NCBI GenBank assembly: GCA_036940085.1 | Contig: JALLBK010000202.1 | Coordinates: forward strand, 1 to 31,192 | Direction: 5' to 3' | Length of the DNA stretch: 31,192 bases | Source: Discostella pseudostelligera | Lineage: Eukaryota > Bacillariophyta > Thalassiosirophyceae > Thalassiosirales > Thalassiosiraceae | In this document: positions 1-25,006 of the stretch, piece by piece | Layout of the letters: each line of letters begins with the position of its first letter | Position numbering within the stretch: the first letter of the stretch is position 1 | Position numbers and translations under genes: made by a program | The notes under the pieces: generated by a model | The model's input: the letters and a program-made list of their open reading frames with translations, nothing else | The model's database searches: none | What the model was told of the DNA's origin: nothing

Positions 1-452
1 GAGGACCACAGAATTTCTTTCCCCAGTGGTGATGACATATGAATGTTATTTCCTAAAAATATAAAGAGGAGAGATGAAGATTGGAAGAGAGGAGGTCGAT
101 TTTGCAGCGCGCTGCATGAAATGCTGCTCTTTTTGCCGACTCTTTCTCACTTTGCACCTTGTGCTAACCTCTGCCACGTGTAAGTGTCTCCCGCCAAATC
201 ATTGCCACTTCGAAAGCTCCTTTCTCCTTTCGGAGTCGAGTCGTCGCTTTTCAGAAGACGGACAGACGTATCTTTGTCCAAACTCAAACTCCAACCTCAA
301 CTTTACCCACGGTCAGACGGACATCGCCCGCCACTCGCCCATCACCATGAAGTCCACCTCCTACTAGTACGACCTCCATACACCGTTCACCCTCCACCTA
401 CGTCGACGCCTGAACACAGCAGAACAAACGAAAAGTGGATGATTGTCGGATT
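1..452. other. Upstream region of the oxygenase gene, no supported gene
   Basis: This is the left edge of the window and the upstream region of the oxygenase/TPR gene. Two overlapping short open frames on the plus strand (74-367 and 184-459) have no recognisable domain and unlike codon use, so I do not call them genes. An E2F-like motif, CTCCCGCCAAA, lies at 188-198 and is the only regulatory candidate I can point to. An upstream 5' exon of the oxygenase gene cannot be excluded. Confidence 0.5.
188..198 (-). promoter_or_regulatory. E2F-like promoter motif upstream of gene 1
   Basis: The plus strand reads CTCCCGCCAAA, that is TTTGGCGGGAG on the minus strand, close to the E2F/DP consensus TTTSGCGC/TTTGGCGGGAA. 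It lies about 255 nt upstream of the likely oxygenase start codon. The match is seen directly; the binding protein is inferred. Related motifs recur in three other upstream regions of this window. Confidence 0.35.
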
Positions 453-2936
453 ATGTTGATGATCATGAGGAGAGTGATTTGTCTAACCCTACCATTGATC
501 ATCTCGTCGTCGTCGTCGTCGTCGTCGCAAGAGGAAGAGAATGACGTCGTTGTAGCAAACCGTATCCGACAAGCCAAGCTGGATCTTTGGCTTCACGGCG
601 CATTTTCCATGACTACCGAGTATGGTGTGGTGGATAGTAGTAGTAGTAGTGCTATTATTGCGGCCGACTTGGAGATGCAAGTTTCCACAGCCCTGGTTCG
701 GCATGGACCAATCCGAGATATTCGAAGGCGGCTTCTGCGTGATTTGCAATTGGATAAAATGGATAGTGGTGGTGGAGTGTATTCAACAATGACAACTACT
801 ATCATGGGCATGCGGGGAGGCGATGGGTCAGTAAGAGAAGATTATGCCTCTCGTCTTGAAAACCAATTGGCTGAATTAAGTGTCAAGTTCGGGAAACCGT
901 TCATTGATGCAATCGAGCGGGTGAGTATTATATTACTGCATTTATACTTTGTATACCGATTCTTCAACTACATTGCATCTTCGTTGTCCACCAATATCTC
1001 GTATCAGAACCAAGTGGAACATGCCGCTGACTGTGCAAGAAGTTGTGAGCTGTTCTATTGTGCAAATGATTCAACATCTATTGAATGGGATCCGGAGGCA
1101 CATAATGAGACAACTTTTGCATCATACTCCTTTGGGTCGGTTCCACCAGAAGATTTTAGTGATGAATTCCAGTACGTGCCAGTGATCGCATTTTTGCTGT
1201 CGTCTTCACTTTTTTCATGCTCATCCCATTCATACTTTTCCCTTTCCATAGATTTCCACTAGATCTCATAAAAGTTACGCAAGGAGCGCCATTATTTTCG
1301 GCTGAGGAATGTGCATCAGTTATTGATCGAGCTGAAGAAGAGGGTGTGGATAAAAACGAGTATAAGAGCGGGAAATATAGACTAGGAGGTAGGAATGGCA
1401 TGGATTGATGTTTATGAATTGCGCTGAATATGTCTGAAAATGTAACTGATCACCACCTGTTTTTTGCTGGTTTCAGGAGACTGGCTAGTTAATCTTCCAT
1501 CGACACGAGCATGGTTCAATTCCAAGCTTGAGCATGTGTTATTCCCTCTTCTTCACCATCTCTTTCCCGAGATTATTCGCAACCCATCAATTCTCAGAGC
1601 ACACTCCGTATCGCTCCTCAAATACAATCATACCCACCCACGAACAGATGTGCATATTGATAATGGAATACTCGCCATGACGCTCGCAATGACACCTCAA
1701 TCTGATTACGTTGGTGGAGGGACCTTCTATGAACATATGGGAGTAGACCACGTATTGCCGATGGATGTTGGGCACGGCACTTTTCGACCCGGCTCTGTTC
1801 GGCATGGAGGACATAGAGTCACCTCTGGCACACGATACATATTAGGAGCATTTCTTCTGCTGGAAGATCATGTAGAGCATGTTCGGAGGTTAAAGAATAG
1901 AGGATCAGAGTTGCGAACAAGCGGAGACTTGCAAGGGGCAATCAGCCACTTTGAATGGGCTTTGGCCCTCAATCCTAGATGTACGACGTGTCTGAAAGAT
2001 TGGGCTGAAGTACTCCTGTCACAGAAAGATTTTGCTAAAGCGGAAGAGATGATTCGAAAAGCATTAGAAATGCTGGAAGGTCTTGACTCTGACGCTCTCT
2101 TCACTTTGGGACTGATTCTCTCTGAGCAAGGGAAGGACGACGAGAGTATAGCAACATACAGAAAGAGTATCGAGTTGAATGCTGAAGATGCGGAGCTATG
2201 CTTCAATCTTGGTATCAAGCTTGGTGAAAGAAATGACATTACAGGCGAATTAGCCATGTACAAGAAAGGTGCGTCCTCCTTTGCTTCCTATCCATTTTGC
2301 ATGTATGAGGATACCGGGCTCTGTTTTATCTGAATTTGGATTGATTCTGCATTACAACTCTGCTCACGTTTAATGTTGTTGGATTATCCCACAGCAACGG
2401 AAATTGATCCGCATATGGGAGGGGCGTGGATCAATATGGGTACTACACTTGCCGAGTCGGGTGATTTTGATTCGGCCGAACTAATGTTCTTGAAAGCGAT
2501 TCAGTGCTGCGATGATGTCAAGACGAAAGGAATGATGAATTTGGCATTGACTTTACAAGCAAAAGCAAACAACTTGGCAGCAGGCGGTGACTTGAGTGGT
2601 GCAAAGGCGGCAATAGATCACGCGGCCACATTGGTGGATGAAGCAACACCTTTGCTGCAGGCAAAAATTGCATTGGGTAGTGCGACCTCCGAAGACGCTG
2701 TATTTGCGAGGCAGACAAAGCCTCTACGAATTCAAATACATCGCCTCTGTGGACAGATTCTAGCAGGCATGGGAGATTTGGTAGCATGTGAGGCCGAGTT
2801 TCGAACAGCAAGCGAGAAGTTTGGTGACATTCCTGGCATATGGGAAGCACTAGCACGTGTCTTAGATTTACAAGGGAAAACAGAGGATGCTAAACAAGCG
2901 AGAGATAGGTTGGCAGAGATTCGAGGCGTGCTGTGA
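453..2936 (+). CDS. Prolyl 4-hydroxylase-like 2OG-Fe(II) oxygenase with C-terminal TPR repeats
   Basis: Five exons are inferred: 453-920, 1008-1171, 1252-1388, 1477-2268 and 2395-2936. All junctions are GT-AG and keep frame, giving about 700 residues. The ATG at 453 opens a short basic then hydrophobic segment (RRVICLTLPLII) that looks like a signal peptide, followed by eight serines from a TCG microsatellite; the in-frame codon at 435 is GTG, so I did not use it. The oxygenase core has the iron ligands H316 and D318 (HID) and H369, with R376 (SGTR) as the expected 2-oxoglutarate contact, as in the P4Hc family. Residues about 385-700 form TPR-like helical pairs, for example GDFDSAELMFLKAI. 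Known P4H-type enzymes hydroxylate proline or related residues; the TPR region may bind substrate or a partner. Substrate unknown. Secretory location is inferred. Confidence 0.8.
504..527 (+). repeat. (TCG)8 coding microsatellite
   Basis: Eight perfect TCG units encode a run of eight serines immediately after the hydrophobic leader of the oxygenase/TPR protein. A shorter (AGT)5 array at 636-650 encodes five more serines. Both are in frame, so length changes by whole units would be tolerated. Confidence 0.9.
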
Positions 2937-4803: not shown

Positions 4804-7800
4804 ATGGTGGGGGAACAATCGTCGCCGCCAAGCGAGGGGACATCTTCCCAACAGCGGCGTATACCAAAGAAAAAGAAATTCACACACGACGCGATGGCCG
4901 ATGATGCCAATTTCAACATCACGACTGCCAATGAGACCTCTACATTAACTTGCGATGTTGAACACGAGACAGTAGGGGCAGTCGACGACGGCATGAATTT
5001 GAGCAAACTGCCCACCAAGGACGCCACAACAACAGAAGTTGATGGGCCAAGTGAGTCAGGACTAGATCATCTCAAGCGCAAATCTGCTGCCAAAACTGAG
5101 AATACTCCCGAGATGATTTTTGATCCTCCCATTCTTCGTAAAGGAGATCTCGTTCGACTTTCTAACGAGTAAGTTGAACGCGTATTGTGAATTGTCAATG
5201 ATAGCTTGAGCTCAACCATCTTTCATTCTCATTACTACCACTTTACATTCCCAGGCAAAGATCAGGCCGCATTCAAGGAGGATTAGCTCGTATTACTCGC
5301 GTGATATTTGCTACCATCGATGACGACACACGAGCTGGCGATGAAATTCCGACTGGTTATGATATTGAATACGTCCTTGGGGGCAAACTCTCCAATTTGG
5401 CACGATGCGACTTAGCTTATACAACCGCTACGGCAGAAGGTCTTGTGGATGCAACTGATAATTCTAGGGGACATCTCTTGCGTCGTCGACGGCCCGCGGC
5501 CGTGGAGAAGGAACGGGAAGTGGCAGATTCATCCATGGGCAAAGACAACGACAAACAGAAACCTAGGGCTGGTGGCAATGAAATGGAAACCCCCACGAAG
5601 CGCAAACCAGGAAGACCACCGAAGAAAAAGGCCGATGAGCCTGCAAAAGAATCAGAGGATGTGGTAGCTGACGAGTTGACGTCGTCGTTGTTGTCGAAGA
5701 AGGATAAGGGTCGAAAGAGTGAACTCACTTCAGGTGCTGATAAGAAACAACGTGCTTCAAAGACCAGCAACAATGATAGCAATGCTGATGAGAACATCCG
5801 AAGTAAGATCGCAAAGCTTGGATGGGAAACGAGGCGCGCCCAAGAGGCTGCTGCTACTAACAAGACTACTAAGCCTTCGATTAAGTCGGGGACGAGCAAA
5901 GGAACTAGTGGTACTAACGTAAAGCGGAGTAACAAACGGCACAGCAACACAGATACTAGCGAGTCGGATGTAACCTCAATCGCTGGGCATACAGAGGAAT
6001 TATCTGGATCGCGCCGTCTAGACTTTTATACTAAACAGAGAAAGGAGATGGAAAAGTCGCTTCAGAGGCTTGAAAAGGTTGACCGATTTGGATTTTTCTT
6101 GGATGAAACCCCTCCTGAGTTTGACGAGAATTACGACCACGACGATTGTGACGACCTCCCTGATGGCGATGACGGGTCTGTCCCAGTTGCTAATATTCGC
6201 AAGAATGTGCAGTTTCCTGATCAACCACCGTTTAACTTTCTAGTTGTTCGCAAGCGCCTTGCGGCTGGGAGATACAATGTCGACATGGTGGCCGCTGAAG
6301 TGAAAAGACTCAGGGAAATTGAAGCCATGCTACACCCATCTGGAACTGATGAAGGACAACAAGTCGTTGAAGTTGACTCTGACGAATTGAAACAATCAGT
6401 ATGCAATCCAATTGCTGTCGACTGGGATACTTTTTATGCAGATATTGTTGGCATGTGCGACGCTGCTTTGGACCGTGATCCTGAAGGCCCTTCACTAGGC
6501 GGTGGTCATTTGGGCTGGGCGGCAATTAAAGTCAAAAAAATGATGGAACAAATGTATTTTGGTTACGGCAATAGACGAAGGTTGGAAGTGGAGGAGAACG
6601 AAGCCCGTGAACGATACGAAAAGATACTGTTGAGTTGTGGCAATACAGAAGCGGCAATGCAAGGAAAGTGGCGAAAGGAGGCATTCCCGGAGCGCAAGTA
6701 TGAAAGGTTGCAGACTTCCAGTGTGATATGCGATGGACTTTCACCAAAGGATAGATCGTATGCAATGTATGAGCTCGAAACTAAGTTGCCAGACAGCTTT
6801 GTTGGGTTGGCATACACATATGACGATAGCGGCCAGCTCAGCGAGATGTGGATGAAGACCGTTGCTGACGAGACGCACAAAAAGTCAAAGCAAAGGAAGA
6901 AAAAGAAGGACTCCAAAGACGATAGTGATTCGGTAGTGAACGAGGATGAATCCACAGCCCAAAAAGCTGCCATGGCATTGGCAAAGGATGATGGTGTGGT
7001 CCGCGCTCAGGTTCAAACGGCTATGGTTAATCTTCTTATTCAAGTCCAGGATCGAGTTATGACGGATCTCGGTGTGATGCACAGTCCTGAGGCTCGCAGC
7101 GCCAATTGGGACGATGGCGATCGTGGCCGCGACTACCGTGGTGGAGGTGCCGAGGTTGAGCAAGGGACACATACAGTACTCTCTCTCCCGGAGGTAGCAG
7201 AACAAGAAGTTTGGGGCATTGATTGTTACACGAGGAAGAATGTCATGACATTGATCGAATCCGAATTTACGCCTGAAATTGCTGTTGAATTTGTTGAGAA
7301 GTGGTTGCTTCCTGCAATTAATGCATGCCCTATTGACCTCGCACATAAAATGTCAACGGCCGCCAAAATTTTAGAAGGGCAAGATCCCATCGCTGCCGCC
7401 CGAACCAAAACGAATTTACTCGATGATACGACTTCAGAATCTAGTGATGTCGATGGAACATCTCAGAATGCCTGTCAGCCGTGTGAAATAAAGACTGACG
7501 CTCGAAAAATACAAGAGAGCTGCGTATTTTTGAGAGATGCACTCAAATCGAAAATCAAGGAACATTCGCCCCCGTGGCTCAAGTCTGCAGCGCGCTTGAT
7601 CCGCCTAGCGTCTGATTCCATAGACGATGACTATTTTAGAATCCATCCAAAAGGGCACGGATCCGTCGTGATTGGCGAAGGTGGGCTCAAGGCGAATTCC
7701 CTTGTCACGTATTACCGTGGGGAGGTGTATCCTGCTTGGCGTTGGTGCGAGAAATTGGACGCAATTGAGCATGTACAGAAGAAACTGAATTTGCGTCCAA

Positions 7801-10800
7801 ATCTTCCCGACTTTTACAACATGGCAATGGAGCGGCCGAAGAAGGATCCACGCGGATATTGTCTTCTATTTGTTGACGCTTCTCGCAAATCAGGGTTGGG
7901 GTCTTCCTTTTCTCATAGTTGCAACCCTACCTGTGAGGTTCGCGTGGTATCTCTCAATGGAAAACTTTCTCTCTCAATGACTACTCTTCGAGATTTGGAG
8001 CAAGGCGAGGAATTAACATTCGACTACAATGCAGTTACGGAGTCATTGAATGAGTATCGATTTGCAGTTTGTTTGTGTGGGCAAAAGAAGTGCAGGGGAT
8101 CATTTCTGCACTACGCTACTGCAGATTGTTACCAACAAGTCCTGAGTCGAAATTCTCCTGTATCTGCTCGGTTCGCCAATCTAGTTCGCGGTTGCATGAA
8201 GCAGGTCATGTCGAAGGAAGATTCAGAGCTCTTATTGAAACACGGTTTCAACACTGCAGCATTTGGAGCGGTGAGCTTCAACCACCACAGCGGCGTCGAC
8301 CCTCAATCAAATCCTGATTCGATTGAAAATGTGCCCGTATGGTTGCGAACATATGTTGCTGACTGCTTGCGGTATATCGAGTATGAGCGAAGGGCGCTCC
8401 CCGTCGCTTTACTATGTAATCAAATGGAAAGGATGGAGAACAAGCAACCAAAATTGAAGGCTTCGCTACCGAAAAAAGAAAAACCCGCCCCCGCAAATGA
8501 ATTATCATCTTCCAAAATGAAATCTGTTGCTGGCTCAAAGCCCGCGACGTCATACTTCTTTTTTCTTCAGAGTCAAAGAGAGCATTGGGAGTCGATTGCG
8601 CGACAGAATTACGGCGATCTGAAAGGTCTTGAATTCAGCCAAGAAGTAAATAAAGAAGCATCACGAGCTTGGAGCAACCTTACTGATGAAGAGAAATTGT
8701 CATGGAAGAAAAAATCAATCGCAGACTGGAAGAAAAATGGAGGGAAAGAGAAAGCAAAGCTGGAGGCCGAACGGCAGCGAGGATTGAAAAACTTATCAGA
8801 TGGTTCAGCGAAGTCATCGGAGCCAGCTAAAGCTACCGAAAAACAGATAGGAAACAACGAAGGGGGAAACGGAGACAATGGCAAACCGGCTGAGCATGAA
8901 AGTTTGGTTGAAACTAAAAGTATTTCAATTGCCGATGCAGACGCAGAGGGGTTTTCAGCCATGGAGCAACGAATTCAGCAGCTGGCTCAAAGCTTGAGCC
9001 GCATAGGTCGTGTTCTTGATAGACACAGAGAGAGTGTATGTGCCGAAAGAAAGGATATCACAACATCCATCGACTCTGACCGACTGCGTGATTTGGTGCC
9101 CACCCCATTGAAGATTATGTTTGACGAGGAAGTAGTGAGCTGGATTTGGTCGGACTGTAAGGGTGTAGTTAACGCCCTGTTCTCGATGACGACTATTCAC
9201 TTTCCTGAACATTCTCTGTTGAGGAAGCTCCTTTCGAATACCAAAGATTCATACCCTGTTCTCTCAGCATTCAATCAATATCGTTCTATCCACCCTCTGG
9301 ATAGGAAGGGAAAAAATTCTTGCACAAGTACTCATGCAAGGAAGTTAGTTCGCGAGGCGTTGTTGAACTTTCGAATGAACATAATGGATTTCCTTTCACT
9401 CGCAGAAAAATCAAATGCCGATGTCCGGAATGAAAAGCGCAGAGACCAAGCACGCGCAAGGGAGGAGAAGAAAAGGCAGGGAATCAATGTTTCTGAAGGT
9501 CCTGAGTTGTCTCAAGGTGTAACAGATTCATGCAGTGAAATCAAAAGTACTCACGCTTCCTCCCTTCAAACTACGGGGGACGAGGACATGAAGCAGGAAC
9601 AAGGCCTACCCGCTGGACTGGACCACAATGATTTGATACCCCCAACTAGTAAAGAAAGAATATCTCTGGAGAACACAGCCCACGACTTGGATAATCAACC
9701 TTCCCCCGCAACTGCAGTCGGGAAAGAGGTCAATTCTTCGCCTAGCGCGGGAGAAGAAGTCATGTCGATGCGAGGGGGCGGCGACGAGTGCGCCTCCACA
9801 ATTCGTCAAACGAATACTTTCGAGCCTTCAATTAAGAACCCAATCGAAGATACAAACAGTATGTTATCCGACGCGCCAACTCACGCAGATCTTAGCGCAA
9901 CCGATGTCCCATTCACTGTTGTTGACGATGTTAAGCCTTCGTCGAAAATCTTTTCTGTGGCATCTCACTCTTGCGAAGCCGATGATTGCATCGACGTGGG
10001 AGAAAGCTCCGTCAACATGAATGCTGTGCCATCCAATGAACGATCTGAGTCCTTAGTTGACGAAGGTACTAGCCAGATATTGGATGCTGCTGCTGCAACG
10101 AGACTACAAGATTTAATCAATGCCGCATCGAGCAACAGAGGTGATGAGATAGAAATTATTTCCTTAGCGCTTGCGTTGACAGAAGAAATACCGTCGGAAC
10201 CAACCATCATGGAGGTAGAATCAAAAAAACCTCGAAAGAAAATTGTTCCAATGTCACAAGACCAAGTCAGCTACCTCAAGGATTGGTTATTTGATCCGAA
10301 ACATATATTGAACCCATACCCGACGGAAGAGGAAAAGTGGATAATGATTAAAGATATTGGAATTGAACGCTCTCGACTCGACAGCTGGTTTACGAAGAAC
10401 CGACAGAAAGTGCTGAATCCGGAAGTCAAACCAGTCACAATGAAATGGCGCAAAGACGACCAAGTTCATTGGGAAACCTTCCGAAAGAGCAGATACATGT
10501 TAGAAGCCACAGCTGATTTGTTGCTCATGTACGCCAACACCAAAACGTTCTTTTTGTTGGACCCCTTTCTTCATTTCGATTCGACTCCAATCGACGTGTA
10601 TGCTAGGGAGCTGGGAAATGAAGTTCCGTCTCGCTTCGCCTTGAATAGTCAACATGTCTCGGGTGATAATCCGGATGCTGTAGTCTCTCGTGACGAAGAA
10701 TCCCCGGAAGTAAATCGCGAAGGACTAGGGGTCGACGAAAGTTCAGAGATCATCAAGACCAAAGTGTCAAACTTATTTTGCTCCCCCGACGAGGTGATTG

Positions 10801-13800
10801 ACAAAGTAACTATTGATTACACAGGAGATTATGTTCTCAGTCAATTATTGCAATGGTTCAATGGTGGAATAGGTCAACAGAAGGGACTTCCGGACCTCTA
10901 CGGGTGCGTGATGCTACCGCCCATTACAGGTTGCTGGGAAGAAATTAAATGCAGTGAGGTTAAGCTTCCAAATCACACCAGGTGAGTGCCAAATACTTTT
11001 CATTGTTTCCCTTGACCAAGCCAATCTTACTCAAGTCATCGATCGTGAATTCGACAATACAGATGGAATCAATGTACTACCACCGAATATGATGCAGTTG
11101 CACGCCCCAAGCTTGCCGAATGGATCGCTGATCGTTACCAGCGCGGGAGTCCATGGGATAGAGAATTGGCAAAATATTTTTGCCCTTTGAGCCAAGGTGC
11201 TCCTGACCCAACTTTGCCGATGGGCTCACCAGTTTTGGATTATTTAGTCACTGGGATCGACGAGAACATACAGCACGTTTCATCAGCGCTCCGAGGACAT
11301 GCTAGCACCACTGAACAAGGAAGGTCGAAAATGTCCGCATCTGATAGGCTTCAGTCCACCGTCGATGATGGGATGCCCGCTCAAGCTGTTGCGAATTGGG
11401 TTCAATGTGAAAATCCGAAATGCCTTAAATGGCGTAAACTGCCTTGGCATGTTGATGTAGATCTTTTGCCAGAAAAATTCTTTTGCAAGGACAATATTTG
11501 GAATCCTAAGTCGCAAAATTGCGATGCAATTGAAGATGAATGGGATATGGGAGATGCTCCTATTAAGTTTGATACCAATGATGAAAAATTTGAAGTTGGA
11601 GGTGTGTTACTACTCTGTTTCATTCGTTTATTTTTCCTCAACATTGTGCTCATCTTCATACTCCAGCGTGGTTTGACGTTCAACGTGAGGGCAAGGTGGG
11701 TTATCACGAAGCACAGGTGGTGGAACTCGATTTCGAGTCGAATGTGAAGAGAATTAAGTTTCATTTTTGGAAACTACCCAGTGACCGCGATGAATGGATC
11801 GTGGTTGGATCTCCGAGAATTGCACCTCATGTAAGTTGCTTTATATCTGCATCAAGGTTTCAGCTCACGTTCAATACTAACACATGCCTGCAGCACTCCT
11901 ACACACCGAGACCGCTCGAAGGTTACTCATCTAGGAGCAAGAGAAACACCGGCAAAAGTAAAGAGCTCGTCAATGACTTGCCGGTCGATGCGGCAACTGA
12001 GGCAACTGAGTTGCCTCAAAAGAGGAAGACGGATCACTCGAATGACGTGGAACCGAAGTGCGAAGGGACCGCCGACGAGCCAGCCGGCTTCGCTCTATTT
12101 GCAAAGCCCATTGTTGATTACCTTAATGCCTGGATGGTTCAACACAATGACAATCCATACCCAACACCGAGCGAAAAAGTGAAAATCACTGCTGATACCG
12201 GCTTGACAAAGAGGCAAATTGGGGATTGGATGGCTAGGTCAAGGAAGAAACTGAAGGCAAAATCCAGCCAACCCGCCAACGACATTGAACCGGCTGTCAC
12301 GCCCTCAAATGATGTCACAATTGTGGACTCCGATCACGGTAATCTGTTAAATGTCGTGAACTTGCTCCCTGTCTTGCGGAATCAATCAGCAATGCCCATG
12401 CAGGACATTCCAGGCGATTCCAAAGATGTGATACCGGATGGCAATACCAACACTGTAGATAAAACATACAAGAGTTCTGATGGAGTCTCTTACAGATCAC
12501 CTGTCCTCACCGAGTCGGGAAATCTGAGTCAACCAACGTCATTGAAAGAGCTTGAGGTTTTCATGAAGACTTGGCTCACTGGTCCGGAAGGCAATTTATT
12601 TCCGACCTTGGCGCAAAAAGAGAGAATAATCCAAGCGACGGGTATAGATAAAAAACGACTAGAAGGTTGGTTCTTTCGAGCAAGAAAGAAGATAAAAAAG
12701 CAGGAATCAATGAACGTAATTGCGAAGCCCGAGACAAATCTCGCGGCGGAGTCGTCGGCATTGGGCCCAGAAAACAAGCTTTTGAATGAGAATCGACCTG
12801 CCGGTCCATTAACTTGTGTGATTCAGGCTAGCAAAAAGNCAGGCTAGCAAAAAGAAATCAATATCTCGGAAGGACGTCGAATCTGCCAACAATCGAACTC
12901 CAGTAAACGCAATGAGCCTGAGTTCACTCAGTTCTTCCACTGAACCTCTCAAATCTCAAATGAATGATCCTCTCACATATGCCTGTGTCTCAAATCATGA
13001 TGTGTCGAAGGAATCAAGTTTGCAGTCTAAGGGTTTGACACAAGAAGCAAAGAACTATCTCTCTCGGTGGCTATCTGAGCACTCAGGAAATCCATACCCT
13101 ACGAGGGAGGAGAAGGACGCAATGATGACACTTTTGGGTATTTCGTCAGAAAGGCAGCTAGAAGGCTGGTTCTGCAGGGTGAGGAAGCAAAAGAAGAAAA
13201 ATTCTAACTCCACTGACCAAGATCCCCAGAGCCAAGTGCCAAACCAAGCATCAACGGAAATTACTCACGAGACTACAAACTCGTTACGCCCTCCTAACAA
13301 TGGTGCGTTTGGAGATATCGATTCGAAAAGTCAGCAGGACGAATCTTTCCATTTTGGCGCCCCCACTCTCTCCTCCAACTTTGCATCCCTTTTGAGCGCG
13401 GCGAAATCGGAGCTCAGTGAAGAACCATGGGTAAATCCACCTCACGTGCATGCATTTAGTCAGGAGACAAGAAATAAATCGACTTCTCATCGCACTGATC
13501 ACTCACAACATCAGATACAACTGTCGACTCAGTATGGAGCACAACACGGTTTCGCTGCTAATAACGGCGAAGAAGACTATCATCGCCTAGATGCAAGAGT
13601 TCATCTGTCCTCCTTTCAAAGCTTGGAGTCGTCAGACCTACAGGATCGGTCATCTCATGCCTCCTTATCTGTGCATCCGCCTTGCCAACAGCCTCAGCAC
13701 GACGAACGAATCGATTATTCATCGTACCATCGCGTACAGCAGAGAGCGTCTCCTACAGAGTACACACAAGTTCAGTACCCTCACAGCCAATACTCTCGTG

Positions 13801-14144
13801 CTGAATATTCATCTTATCCCGAGTCTTATCCTGCCGACTATTCTTCCTATCAGCACAGTGCGTCGTACGCTAGCAACGCATCGTATTATTCATCGCAAGG
13901 AGAAACGCGAGCCTCTCCCGCAGATTATATGCATGAATCAGAGAAGGTTAGAGGGACAGCGGATCCAGTCGATTACCCATGCTATTCACACGTCGGCGAT
14001 CACCAGCAAGTTCAACGTTATACTTACCCTCGTCCTCACGAAGATAGTTTAAAATACCCTGGCGTGGAGGGCAATGGGTTACATCAAGCTCACACATCAT
14101 CTTATGAGCAGCAGCGTTCTGAAGACCAATCGATGAACAAGTAA
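4804..14144 (+). CDS. Giant ATXR3/SDG2-type SET methyltransferase with AT-hook, HMG box, CW finger and four homeodomains
   Basis: Five exons (4804-5168, 5255-10981, 11063-11601, 11667-11830, 11894-14144) join in frame if the 16-nt N-plus-duplication near 12839 is collapsed, giving about 3009 residues. The start ATG has a good context (ATCATGG). Domains in order: AT-hook near 237-247 (KPGRPPKK); SET about 905-1075 with GEVYP, SHSCNP (H1009, C1011), FDY1046 and post-SET cysteines C1061, C1063, C1068; HMG box about 1218-1283; homeodomain 1 about 1788-1845; CW finger about 2143-2192 (C2146, C2151, C2172, C2184); Tudor/chromo-barrel-like segment 2211-2265 ending DEWI...RIAP; homeodomains 2-4 about 2333-2388, 2480-2536 and 2638-2697; a Ser/Tyr/His/Gln-rich tail. 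The SET and flanking segments resemble plant ATXR3/SDG2, an H3K4 trimethyltransferase, so nuclear H3K4 methylation is the likely role. SET, HMG and homeodomain 1 share one 5.7-kb exon, so the fusion is not a gene-model error. Confidence 0.88.
12824..12854. other. Likely assembly join: 15-nt duplication around a single N
   Basis: The 15-mer CAGGCTAGCAAAAAG occurs at 12824-12838, is followed by N at 12839, and repeats exactly at 12840-12854. As written this shifts the frame of the SET protein and gives a stop at once. Removing one copy plus the N (16 nt) restores one continuous frame through homeodomain 4 to the stop at 14142-14144. The pattern is what results when two contig ends with an unmerged overlap are joined. 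Confidence 0.85.
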
Positions 14145-19079: not shown

Positions 19080-21044
19080 TCATTGTCCTTTTGGAATCGA
19101 ACAATTCCCGGCAATATATTTTTCGACATCTTCGTGGTCAGATGTTTCAACCTCATCGGCACAAGAACTACTATCCTCACTGTTGTCATCGTCGCTGTCT
19201 TCATCATTGAAAAACCTCCGGCGTAGATAGGTGTTCGGCACCACCGATAGAGATGAATCAGATTCCCAATGTATTACGCTAAAGGCCCCAGACTCAAGGT
19301 AGCACATGTGATATGCAAGGACCATCAGCGGTAGATCCGAAAAAGTCACTGTATTCATTAATGTGACAGGCGTCCATTCACAGTCCTCGGCGTCATAAGC
19401 CTCCCAGCTAGTTGCATTGTCTTCAACTCCTGCTCTCTCACAAATAGGACAGTTTCCATTAAGTGTTTTTTCCGCACGTTCGAACGATGCCATCATTACT
19501 TCCGTGGGAGTTGATTCAAATTTCGATGTATTGCTCGAAGATATCTTATCTTTGCTCGAGCCTTTTATTATACAAGCAACCGTCGGTACAAATGAAACGC
19601 TATTATCGTCATCCCATCGAAGTGGTACGCAAGGACCAATTGATATGTCGAAGTCAATTCCCTCCCAATTAACTTCTTGATAACATAATGTTGTTGCAGT
19701 GTAAAATTTCCCATCTTCCCATAATGCAGTAACGGATATTCCTGATGGGAATGTAGTATCATAGTACGCCAGTTTTTCTGCCAAACGAGTAATTGCTGTT
19801 GCGCATTTTAGCGGGCTGAATCCAAATCCAAATGGATGACCGCCAATTATCGCGCCACTGCCCGACGGGAAAGAATTCATGTAAAGGGGCAGCGTAATGG
19901 TCCATTGCGACTGGAAGATGGAATCATACAACTCAATGCATGCCGTGACGTGGTTGACATTACGGTTGTCTTCGTTAACCGAGCTATGGTTGGGTTCAGT
20001 GATGGATATGATACGTCCAGGAAACCAGCCTATGCGAAGGACAGAAGTATTGTCATCGTTTCGATCACTCACAGAATTCCCAACGTATTTGACAAACACT
20101 CCATCACTAACAGTATGACACCGACGAAGAAAAGGTTCCATCCAAGTTTCATCCCGTGATATTCCAATTGACGAACAAGGTATGTCGGATGTGTTCTCAC
20201 GAAAGATGCATGGTCTCTTGAGCAGGTTTCCGTCTTCCATTCCCTCTCCCAAAAAAAGAGTAGTCAACCGATTCCCCTTAATCCTTGCCATTTCATCTGA
20301 AAGATATTCAATGACTTGTTCCCAGGATGGTTGTGTGTAAAAAATGTTGTCCTTGGTTGCATCAAAGTTTGGTGCCATTGTATTCTTGATGGGATGTATG
20401 CCATTTTTTGTTGATAAATAGTACAGATTGCTGTCACCTTTAGAACACCTTAAGTCTCCAGTGAATGCTCGTATCAAACACTCTGTCATTGTCCACTCCA
20501 GGCCAGCTTCATCTGCTGGCGGAACCGACATGATGCATCCATAATTCACGTTCAATGAGGTTGCATCTCGATATTTTTGTACAACAGCTTGTCCGAACCC
20601 CCCAGAATGGCAACAATCAATAATGCACCACACAGTCCCTCCCTTGAACCTTCTTTCCAATAGTTCAATGATATCCGAGTGTTTCAGCCAAGGCTCAGTA
20701 TGTAATTCGCCATTCTTTACACTCTGGTTTACGGTGCAAAACTCTCGATGCTTGCCATGCCCGCCATAATAGAACAATAGAGTGTCCTCGAGATCCTCTT
20801 TCTTCCTCGCAATTGTTCGCCGAGATAACCTCTTTTTGTTCCTTCTTCGCAAATCCAACAGACGATCGAGCGAACGCAATATATTCGATCTGGTCGCCAT
20901 CTCGTCATAAACCTCCACCAGATGCTCCCTGGGGAGTTGGACATGCTGGCCGAGGAGGCAGCGCGCCAAACCGATATCACCGTGGGAGCATCGCTGCTCT
21001 GGCCAATCTTGATTCACCCCGACAATAAAGGCGTAGTATGGCAT
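19080..21044 (-). CDS. C14 caspase-like (metacaspase-related) protein with long C-terminal extension
   Basis: A single exon of 654 residues. The N-terminal ~250 residues have the caspase-fold order: a start strand YAFIVGVN, a helix and strand HLVEVYDE, the catalytic-His strand LLFYYGGHG (H96), and the catalytic-Cys strand IIDCCHSGG (C145 in the DxCHSG position). Metacaspases of this clan cleave after Arg or Lys; substrate preference cannot be read here. No signal peptide is visible, so it is probably cytosolic or nuclear. Beyond the protease domain, residues about 314-382 (FVKYVG...IGWFPGRI...IELYD) and 435-492 (VTALWEDGKFYTAT) have the Trp/Gly pattern of Tudor/Agenet-type barrels; this is tentative. 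The C-terminus has an acidic Asp/Glu/Ser run near 610-640. The usual metacaspase p10 arrangement is not obvious. It faces a small gene across a 265-bp region with three GGCGGGAA motifs. Confidence 0.8.
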   Translation of the reverse strand: MPYYAFIVGVNQDWPEQRCSHGDIGLARCLLGQHVQLPREHLVEVYDEMATRSNILRSLDRLLDLRRRNKKRLSRRTIARKKEDLEDTLLFYYGGHGKHREFCTVNQSVKNGELHTEPWLKHSDIIELLERRFKGGTVWCIIDCCHSGGFGQAVVQKYRDATSLNVNYGCIMSVPPADEAGLEWTMTECLIRAFTGDLRCSKGDSNLYYLSTKNGIHPIKNTMAPNFDATKDNIFYTQPSWEQVIEYLSDEMARIKGNRLTTLFLGEGMEDGNLLKRPCIFRENTSDIPCSSIGISRDETWMEPFLRRCHTVSDGVFVKYVGNSVSDRNDDNTSVLRIGWFPGRIISITEPNHSSVNEDNRNVNHVTACIELYDSIFQSQWTITLPLYMNSFPSGSGAIIGGHPFGFGFSPLKCATAITRLAEKLAYYDTTFPSGISVTALWEDGKFYTATTLCYQEVNWEGIDFDISIGPCVPLRWDDDNSVSFVPTVACIIKGSSKDKISSSNTSKFESTPTEVMMASFERAEKTLNGNCPICERAGVEDNATSWEAYDAEDCEWTPVTLMNTVTFSDLPLMVLAYHMCYLESGAFSVIHWESDSSLSVVPNTYLRRRFFNDEDSDDDNSEDSSSCADEVETSDHEDVEKYIAGNCSIPKGQ

Positions 21045-21133
21045 GAATAATATACCTTTTCCTTATGGTCGTGGATGTGCCGATGATACTGGCCGATTCC
21101 ATCGGAGTGTCCAATTTAACTGAATTGAAATGC

Positions 21134-22014: not shown

Positions 22015-25006
22015 TCATGCACTCAACGCGGGCCCACCTACGATATTTGCCGCCACGGGTTCTTGGCAACGAAACGCGTCTCTCCCGAGGGCAACAGCAG
22101 CGCCCTTCTTATCCATTTCCTTGACCGCTGCTCCCTTCGCCTCTTCCATTCGTTTCTTAACTCGGGCTTGACCTGCCGCAAGACGTGCAACTGGGACGCG
22201 GTATGGGGAGCAAGAAACATAATTCAATCCAACAGTATCGAAGAACGCAATACTCTTCGGGTCGCCTCCATGCTCTCCGCAGACCGAGAGCGACAGGTGG
22301 GGATTTGCACTCTTGCCCAACGTGGCAGAAAGTTTCATCAGATAACCCACGCCTTCTTCATCAACTGTTTGAAAGGGATCATCTTCGAAAATTCCGAGCT
22401 CCAAATATTTGGGAATAAATCCATTACTGTCATCACGGGAAATGCCCATGGTCATCTGTGTCAAGTCGTTTGTTCCGTAGGAGAAGAAGGAACAAAGAGG
22501 CTTTCCGTCTTCGTCATCCTTCAATGCTGCAATTTTGTTCGACACAAGTGCAGCTCGTGGGACTTCGATCATTGTCCCAATCTCGTAAGGAATGTCAACG
22601 CCACGTTGGTTTCGGATCCGCTCTGCTTCACGCTTGATGATTATGGCTTGGTCTTTATATTCATTGATAGATCCAATGAGGGGGATCATGATACGTGGGT
22701 GTGGTTTCGCTGTGCTTGGCGACTCTTCCATAAAATCCGCCGCTGCCAACATGATAGCTTCGACTTGCATTTTAGTGAAATCAGGCTTGATGATACCTAA
22801 GCGACAACCTCGGAGACCGAGCATTGGGTTTTCTTCATGCATCGATTCAATTCTGTCCAGCATACGCTTCACATCCTTTCCAAAGCCAAGCTCCTCGGCG
22901 ACTTTTTCTTGCACTTGTTCCGGCCGAGGTAAAAATTCATGTAAGGGAGGGTCCAGAAGCCGAATGGTGACAGGCATGCCATTCATGGCAACAAACAAAT
23001 CCTTGAAGTCAGATCGCTGGAAGTGCTTGATGTGGTCTAAGTCATCGAGGCATTCAGTGTGGAAGATCCAGCGCCTCACAATTGGCAGGCGCTCTGGGCA
23101 GAAGAACATGTGTTCCGTGCGGCACAGCCCAATTCCCATTGCACCATTTCCAGCGGCTTGCAGCGCATCAGGGCCACTGTCGGCGTTGGCCAGTACCTTC
23201 ATGACTCCTTGTTCTTTGTCTGCCCACCCGAGGAGTACTTCAAGATCACCTTTTAGAGAAGGTGTCTTTACTTCAATTGCAGTGTTGATGACCTCGCCAG
23301 TTGCTCCATTGATACTAATGACATCTCCTTCCTTGAACACCACGTTCGTGTCTTTGACCGTCACAGTTTTGTTCGTCTCGCTTACGATGATGTCAGAGCA
23401 CCCACATACGCATGGCTTACCCCAACCCCTGGCAACAACGGCCGCGTGACTTGTCATGCCACCTCTTGCGGTCAAAATGCCAGATGCTGAATGTAAATAA
23501 TCAAAGTATGGTAAGAGTTTGGAGTTTCAGTGCACAATTCGGTTATTAAGTATGTGCACTCACCTGCCCACATGCCACCAACATCTTCCGGGCTGGTTGT
23601 TTCCCTCACCAAAATGACACTTTCTCCATTGGCCTTCATTTCTTCAGCTTTCGCTGGAGTAAAGACGATCTTGCCAACCGCAGCCCCAGGAGAACCAGGA
23701 AGACCCTTCGCGACAACCCCTTTCGTGTATTCATTGGACTCGAGTGCTTCAGGCGAAAAGGTAGGATGCAGAAGTTGCTCCACGTGTCTTGGTTCCACCT
23801 TGAGAAGGGCCTCGCTCTCTGTGCAAATACCCTCTTTGACTAGTTCAGTGGCAATTCTGATGGCTGCAACACCAGTTCGTTTTCCATTGCGGCATTGGAG
23901 CATCCAAAGCTTTCCCTTCTCGACGGTGAATTCGACATCCTGCATATCTTTGAAATAGTGCTCCAACTTATCGACATTCTCAACGAACTTGGCATAACAA
24001 TCGGGCAATACCTCCTTCATTTGTTGAATAGGCTGAGGGGTACGAATTCCAGCAACGACGTCTTCACCCTGTGCGTTGATCAGATACTCTCCATACAAGA
24101 CGTTCTCACCAGTTGATGGATTGCGGCTGAAGGCTACACCAGTACCGGAGTCATCTCCCATGTTACCAAACACCATAGTCTGAATGTTGGTCGCAGTTCC
24201 TAGGAGATTTTTGATGTTGTGGATTTCACGGTACTTCACCGCTCTCGGAGTCATCCAGCTGCCAAAGACGGCCTTGACACATGCATAGAGTTGATCATAT
24301 GGATCAGTAGGAAATTGTTTCTTTTGTTGTTCGTACACTGACTTGTACTCGCGGCAGAGCTTCTTGAGGTCGTTGGTGTTGAGGTCAACATCGTTTGTGG
24401 CGCCGGCATCTTCCTTTACCTTGTCGAGGCGTTGTTCAAATTCTTCATGAGGGATGCCAAGGACAACTTCGCCGAACATATCGAGGAGCCGACGATACGA
24501 ATCCCAAGCGAATCTCTCATTGCTGGTGGTCGATGCAAGTCCTTCAACGGTAGTGTCATTCAAACCAATGTTGAGAACTGTGTCCATCATTCCAGGCATT
24601 GACACTGGGTTGGTAGGTGGTAGGTGGAAGTATCGATGAACAGAATACCACAAATGAGCTGGCACGAAATAAATGAAAGTGCATGGCGAAACGAACTGCA
24701 ATACTCACTAGCGGCGCCGCTGCGGCAAGAAAATAGTAGTGGGTCGTTGTTTGATCCAAACACCTTTCCCATATCCTTCTCAATCCTTGCAACGTTGTCG
24801 CGGACGCTCTTCCATACATCTGCTGGCAAATCATTATCTCTGGCATAAATTTGACATAACGGAGTTGTCAAAGTGAATCCAGGCGGTACATCCACACCAA
24901 TCTTTGACATGACCTGCAGACCAAGTCCTTTTCCGCCAACTATTTGTTTGTCTGGATCGACATCCGGCTTGGGAGCGGAGCCACCGAACGGATAGATGAA
25001 TTTCAT
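22015..25006 (-). CDS. ppdK: Pyruvate, phosphate dikinase (PPDK)
   Basis: Three exons, 25006-24709, 24604-23564 and 23486-22015, splice in frame to about 936 residues, close to the usual 870-950. PPDK interconverts pyruvate, ATP and phosphate with PEP, AMP and diphosphate. Visible landmarks are the N-terminal nucleotide-binding start (VGGKGLGL), the SCRSGAA|MSMPGMMDTVLN segment recreated exactly by splicing, the swivelling phosphohistidine motif TARGGMTSHAAVVAR (H460) and, in the PEP/pyruvate barrel, CRTEHMFF, GLRGCRLGI, SYGTNDLTQMT and CGEHGG. Thr458, two residues before the catalytic His, is the position phosphorylated by the plant regulatory protein and is conserved. The start MKFIYPFGG has an in-frame stop about 20 nt upstream and no leader, so as read the enzyme is cytosolic unless an upstream exon exists. 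It is divergent from threonine ammonia-lyase across a CRE-rich region. Confidence 0.96.

Follow-up and report, generated by a model that had tools for sequence, protein, structure and literature searches.

A predicted ATXR3/SDG2-type histone methyltransferase of the diatom Discostella pseudostelligera carries four homeodomains without Asn51

Introduction

How does one diatom gene come to join a SET domain to DNA-binding and chromatin-reading modules, and what would four homeodomains do in such a protein? The question is raised by the predicted gene at 4804-14144 (+) of a stretch of 31,192 nucleotides, called the window here, from Discostella pseudostelligera (assembly GCA_036940085.1, contig JALLBK010000202.1, positions 1 to 31,192, forward strand). 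The original prediction for this locus described one continuous gene in which DNA-binding modules had been inserted into a scaffold resembling plant ATXR3/SDG2, and regarded the combined writer, reader and multi-site DNA-targeting protein as a new architecture. Arabidopsis ATXR3 is known to trimethylate histone H3 lysine 4 (H3K4); transcription and RNA polymerase II were the best predictors of where it localises, a pattern read as co-transcriptional (PMC9372134).

Results

The gene was modelled as five exons in a single open frame of 3,009 codons, counting once a 15-bp overlap at an N in the assembly. The four introns of 86, 81, 65 and 63 bp were placed by the best consensus borders (GT/AG each), and alternative splice choices likewise left the frame open; the model is a sequence-based prediction for this species. 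The encoded protein carries, in order, an N-terminal conserved segment, an AT-hook-like motif, the SET domain, the SDG2_C region with an HMG box and homeodomain 1, a CW zinc finger, a barrel module and homeodomains 2-4. As listed in Table 1, the SET domain, the HMG box and homeodomain 1 lie together in the 5.7-kb exon 2, as had been proposed.

Six residues (H125, C127, Y162, C177, C179 and C184 in the numbering of the aligned SET segment), to which catalytic roles are assigned, were invariant across 71 sequences. The nearest solved SET domains by sequence were those of ASH1L and yeast Set1. The family was called ATXR3/SDG2 because of the SDG2_C match and not from these nearest structures. This match follows the SET domain directly and reached 92.2 bits against a Pfam cut-off of 27, so that the resemblance proposed in the original prediction holds outside the SET domain. 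When the three SDG2_C parts were joined without the inserts, the match rose to 102.7 bits in four stretches. A FANCI_S4 match on SDG2_C part b stayed below its cut-off. A profile search of the genome (23.0 Mb, 963 contigs) found SDG2_C at this locus only. Two structure predictions gave low-confidence models, the SET region included. These sequence comparisons indicate that the scaffold is that of an ATXR3/SDG2 (KMT7 class) histone methyltransferase, for which H3K4 methylation is predicted.

Both the HMG box and homeodomain 1 lie within gaps of SDG2_C, in agreement with the proposed insertion of DNA-binding modules into the scaffold. Their distribution was examined in relatives found with the SET/SDG2_C region. 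This search gave 220 proteins from 2,447 candidates, of which 120 were examined; a minority of these bear organism names, and the named ones are diatoms. Family hidden Markov models (HMMs) seeded from the window were run over the 120 relatives, and a relative was counted as scorable if its protein spans the place in question. Of 118 scorable relatives, 117 have the HMG box, in every case in the gap that separates SDG2_C part a from part b; the one relative that lacks it is P0040. In the window protein, SET, zf-CW and four Homeobox_KN matches exceeded the Pfam cut-offs, and HMG_box did not (19 bits against 25.4). PF00505 was precomputed for 7 of the 120 relatives, and P0029 gave 35 bits when rescanned. 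The HMG region formed a helical segment (predicted local distance difference test scores of 83-92) in an otherwise low-confidence model. The best-ranked Foldseek and VIA-align matches hardly probe the HMG fold, since they are taken up by homeodomains, those of VIA-align covering homeodomain 1 only. A second HMG box was seen in P0029 of Conticribra weissflogii (residues 1896-1967), directly before homeodomain 1.

Homeodomain 1 was found in 27 of 115 scorable relatives, always between SDG2_C parts b and c, and in none of the 88 scorable relatives outside the clade of homeodomain bearers. Among 40 relatives whose sequence extends 150 or more residues beyond the last barrel, 9 have tail homeodomains, all of them together with homeodomain 1; the 31 long-tailed relatives outside the clade had none. 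Among the 120 relatives, no homeodomain match was obtained outside the 31 top-ranked ones, even at E < 1. A maximum-likelihood tree was built from 68 of 116 sequences (window included) with all four core blocks, comprising the ranks to P0066, the named entries and P0106. In this tree, the 28 homeodomain bearers, window included, formed one group with support of 100/100; long branches were flagged for P0106, P0040, Attheya and others. The named bearers are Detonula, Thalassiosira sp. AJA248-18, T. exigua, Conticribra weissflogii, Cyclotella cf. meneghiniana and C. cryptica, and the four of these six that were checked in the taxonomy belong to the order Thalassiosirales. T. oceanica P0016, as well as P0017, P0018 and P0025, ends before the place of homeodomain 1. 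An assembly artefact as the source of the homeodomains was ruled out by the constant place of homeodomain 1 among relatives. The distribution fits a single gain of the homeodomains in the clade that holds the named Thalassiosirales.

We found that the Asn at position 51 of the recognition helix is absent from all four homeodomains, with Lys in the first and Arg in the other three. The Homeobox_KN matches over cut-off lie in exon 2 and on both sides of the assembly join in exon 5, with two stretches before it, and all four places were again over cut-off in the genome search. The predicted structure of homeodomain 1 retained the homeodomain fold. No Foldseek match reached E <=0.001; the best 50 of its 175 matches were homeodomain or homeodomain-complex entries at E 0.1 and above. 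The N-P-Y-P loop is present in homeodomains 1, 2 and 4 and reads N-L-F-P in homeodomain 3, and the third helices are strongly basic (RARKKIKK, RSRKKLKAK, RVRKQKKK). Homologous copies were then counted, with the tail fragments P0121-P0126, whose surrounding gene lies outside the available sequence, taken together with in-gene homeodomains. Asn51 was missing from 62 of 64 readable copies and residue 51 was basic in 61 of the 64; W48 was kept in 63 of 65 and R53 in 61 of 62 readable copies. At least four other KN homeodomains are encoded in the same genome, where counts are lower bounds, and all four found keep Asn51. These results make the proposed multi-site DNA targeting doubtful. Canonical sequence-specific targeting by the homeodomains is likewise doubtful from their sequences, and nucleosome or DNA anchoring, or altered recognition, appears likelier.

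Four separate homeodomain sequence types persist across the clade. That each keeps its position throughout was not borne out, because the last two types appear to stand in the order opposite to that of the window in Cyclotella P0030 and P0031 (continuous tail, modest tree support). P0015 and P0029 have just two tail homeodomains each. The homeodomain tree, built on 65 columns, is unrooted and leaves many of its forks unresolved; in it the other genomic KN domains grouped on the side of homeodomain 1. No support for a recent horizontal transfer was seen, and the homeodomains may derive from TALE genes of the diatom itself.

The SDG2_C region holds a third kind of DNA-binding domain in two relatives. 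P0033 (2580 aa) carries a CXXC finger inside SDG2_C part c (residues 916-972, 48 bits against a cut-off of 26.5), and P0127, a fragment without SET, carries CXXC at the same place (residues 507-534 and 629-675); the duplicated stretch in P0127 may be an assembly effect. The P0033 finger shared 52-55% identity with vertebrate KMT2B or KMT2B-like proteins over 36-40% of the 131-residue query. HMG box, homeodomain and CXXC finger thus occupy three places, and SDG2_C seems, from these sequences, to have taken up DNA-binding modules by grafting more than once. The inserts were read as gains because of the comparison with plant SDG2_C and the tree.

The CW finger was present after SDG2_C in all 105 scorable relatives. 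It aligned with the MORC3 CW domain, matching both tryptophans and the four cysteines; the two tryptophans correspond to the cage residues of such fingers. Reading of H3K4 methylation is the expected role of a CW finger of this type. The barrel gave no Pfam match in the window protein. Its family profile matched the Tudor domains of PHF20 and PHF20L1 over the full domain (E 8e-6 to 2e-5), the best PHF20 match covering profile positions 3-62 of 69 at E 8e-6. The top-scoring matches were to L3MBTL3 (4e-10), but their best stretch is confined to positions 31-62; MBT repeats of L3MBTL were matched in part, and a chain of At1g02740 was matched at positions 4-55. The barrel was found in 41 of the 46 relatives with at least 120 residues after the CW finger. 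Amplified barrels were also observed, with seven copies in Fistulifera solaris P0097 (residues 1897-2481) and four after the CW finger in P0033 (residues 1256-1848).

The AT-hook-like motif was located by motif search and gave no Pfam AT_hook match in the scan of the window protein. For the counts at the N-terminus, the clade was taken as ranks P0001-P0031. The N-terminal segment was found in 52 of 120 relatives, many of the others being N-terminally incomplete. An AT-hook-like GRP motif before SET was found in 18 of the 24 clade proteins that reach this segment, compared with 1 of 28 others. This count is weak evidence because the motif is short, and the AT-hook is perhaps clade-specific. The N-terminal segment looks barrel-like by eye; no Pfam match was obtained for aa 104-190, and a PDB profile search gave nothing convincing, with SNU114 chains alone at E >=0.07. 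These results suggest that the HMG box, the CW finger and the barrel, which had been regarded as additions to this protein, are usual in the diatom ATXR3 relatives scored, and that only the homeodomains, perhaps with the AT-hook, are specific to the clade.

Three other coding regions were noted in the window. TPR repeats extend over two adjoining open frames at 1446-2933 (+), and the part before the repeats looks oxygenase-like by eye. An open frame at 19083-21062 (-) matches the caspase domain Peptidase_C14 (23.1 bits against a cut-off of 21.4) and has a long C-terminal part beyond the match. A pyruvate phosphate dikinase-like gene lies at 22018-24704 (-) in two open frames (PPDK_N; PEP-utilizers and PEP-utilizers_C).

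Table 1. Features of the predicted methyltransferase gene (window coordinates)
Feature	Position	Strand	Remark
Exons 1-5	4804-5168, 5255-10981, 11063-11601, 11667-11830, 11894-14144	+	GT/AG borders
Splice borders, introns 1-4			CGA/GTAAGT...CCCAG; CAG/GTGAGT...TACAG; GAG/GTGTGT...TCCAG; CAT/GTAAGT...TGCAG (slash, exon end)
N-terminal conserved segment (aa 111-182; ILRKGDLVRL...YDIEYVLGGK)	5134-5435	+	split by intron 1; family HMM
AT-hook-like motif KPGRPPKKK (aa 239-247)	5604-5630	+	motif search
SET domain (aa 893-1050)	7566-8039	+	Pfam 40 bits, over cut-off
SET motif SHSCNPTC	7911-7934	+	inside SET
SET motif TFDYNAV	8016-8036	+	inside SET
Post-SET CxCx4C	8070-8093	+	just 3' of SET
SDG2_C part a (aa 1055-1179)	8052-8426	+	best Pfam stretch 2-122 in protein scan; 2-67 (63.9 bits) scanned apart
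HMG box (aa 1217-1289)	8538-8756	+	inserted between SDG2_C parts a and b
SDG2_C part b (aa 1360-1500)	8967-9389	+	weak Pfam match, 13 bits, below cut-off, profile positions 155-210
Homeodomain 1 (aa 1785-1850)	10242-10439	+	between SDG2_C parts b and c; residue 51 Lys (codon 10395-10397)
SDG2_C part c (aa 1868-2095)	10491-11255	+	crosses intron 2; Pfam from about 224/242; scanned apart 242-287, 36.5 bits
CW zinc finger (aa 2140-2192)	11388-11546	+	Pfam zf-CW 56 bits; both expected tryptophans, four cysteines
Tudor/chromo-barrel-like (Royal family) module (aa 2207-2269)	11589-11905	+	interrupted by introns 3 and 4
Homeodomain 2 (aa 2333-2392)	12095-12274	+	residue 51 Arg (12236-12238)
Homeodomain 3 (aa 2480-2540)	12536-12718	+	residue 51 Arg (12677-12679)
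Assembly join	12824-12854	+	15-mer, single N at 12839, identical 15-mer; between homeodomains 3 and 4
Homeodomain 4 (aa 2639-2698)	13029-13208	+	residue 51 Arg (13176-13178)

Discussion

We consider it reasonably probable that this protein is a diatom ATXR3/SDG2 enzyme, predicted to methylate H3K4, which is held on chromatin by grafted modules, the homeodomains, HMG box and AT-hook serving as DNA or nucleosome clamps. The SET and SDG2_C enzyme would place the methyl group on H3K4, the CW finger would bind this product of the enzyme itself, and the barrel would bind another methylated residue. Reading by the CW finger and the barrel could lead to read-and-write spreading or to retention. The homeodomains, with the HMG box and the AT-hook, may act as DNA clamps, either electrostatic or of altered specificity, and so prolong the stay of the enzyme on nucleosomal DNA. 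Through their contacts with DNA and histones, the grafts of the diatom enzyme would contribute further retention. A clamp was preferred to a classical sequence-reading role because all four homeodomains have Lys or Arg in place of Asn51 and yet remain islands of conservation whose third helix is basic.

The structure of the gene has to be weighed before the role of its modules. If the model fused two neighbours, a SET/HMG gene and a CW/homeodomain gene, an N with a duplicated 15-mer inside the gene and introns set by consensus only would be understandable. A literal reading through the N at 12839 does break the frame; the frame is open when the overlap is counted once, and the N with its 15-bp direct duplicate is probably an unmerged contig overlap or contig join. 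The orthologues P0004, P0014, P0026 and P0028 run from homeodomain 3 to 4 without a break. P0004 and P0031 each carry SET, HMG, CW, barrel and four homeodomains in one protein. The former is a Detonula protein from the transcriptome project MMETSP and the latter a gene model whose CCRYP label denotes Cyclotella cryptica. A mis-joined model was rejected on these one-protein orthologues, on the exon and SDG2_C region that homeodomain 1 shares with the SET domain, on the continuation of SDG2_C across intron 2 toward the CW finger, and on the constant presence of that finger after SDG2_C. We therefore regard a fusion of two genes as extremely improbable, and the claim of one continuous gene stands.

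Two other roles of the homeodomains compete with that of clamps. They may serve as protein-protein modules without DNA binding, for example by docking TALE partners such as the products of the four other KN loci. The loss of Asn51 with a retained fold in homeodomain 1 agrees with such docking, and HOPX is a precedent for a homeodomain protein that does not bind DNA (PMC2211742); strongly basic third helices are unexpected for a pure protein dock, and we hold this role to be rather unlikely. Alternatively, the four homeodomains still read specific motifs, Lys or Arg at position 51 changing the base preference (e.g. guanine for adenine), and a four-part DNA address directs the enzyme to chosen genes. 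The retention of W48 and R53, the non-random, basic character of residue 51 and the four distinct types maintained across the clade favour such reading. We know of no homeodomain with Lys or Arg at position 51 that has a defined motif, and the proposal is based on sequence. Asn51 was invariant among 346 homeodomains surveyed (PMC2211742), and a specific address is in our view quite unlikely.

The closest known systems share parts of this architecture. Other diatom ATXR3 relatives (P0055 of Thalassionema, P0064 of Cylindrotheca, P0096 of Pseudo-nitzschia, labelled Psemu1, and P0097 of Fistulifera) have all but the homeodomains and usually the AT-hook, the barrel being usual. Animal KMT2B (MLL2), an H3K4 methyltransferase, similarly joins a writer to reader modules for chromatin and to a CXXC domain that binds DNA; however, it belongs to another SET class, SDG2_C is not among its listed domains and it has no homeodomain. 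TALE homeodomain transcription factors share the Pfam KN match, the fold and, for homeodomains 1, 2 and 4, the N-P-Y-P loop, whereas the diatom copies have Lys or Arg for Asn51 and are embedded in a methyltransferase. Plant ATXR3/SDG2 (KMT7) has the same succession of SET and SDG2_C; the tabulated proteins of four plants are SET+SDG2_C (potato, tomato, rice) or SET+SDG2_C+GYF_2 (Arabidopsis), and the tables give them no HMG box, CW finger, barrel or homeodomain (PMC11069243). Trithorax-class proteins of Archaeplastida (PHD-HMG-SET and PWWP-PHD-HMGb-SET) join HMG and SET in one protein, but they are of another SET class, their HMG precedes SET instead of following it inside SDG2_C, and no homeodomain is listed for them (PMC5725981). 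The presence of several homeodomains in single stramenopile proteins had been noted earlier (PMC6368402). No description of a homeodomain-SET fusion was found in the open-licence PMC literature available in part. The architecture is undescribed in the literature searched, as the claim of novelty had it, and yet it is common to a clade in protein databases.

Taken together, a wider reading is possible, which we put forward tentatively: gaps in SDG2_C separately accepted an HMG box in nearly all diatoms, a homeodomain in Thalassiosirales and a CXXC finger in another lineage, and a conserved change from Asn51 to Lys or Arg turned four formerly sequence-reading homeodomains into nucleosome clamps of a non-canonical kind within an H3K4 writer-reader, which would be the first homeodomain-SET methyltransferase. 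A clade that builds four homeodomains and an AT-hook-like motif into an enzyme with a diatom-shared HMG box would offer a natural experiment on changed writer recruitment. The repeated use of gaps in one scaffold, with the near-uniform replacement of Asn51, makes the repurposing of homeodomains testable in culturable diatoms.
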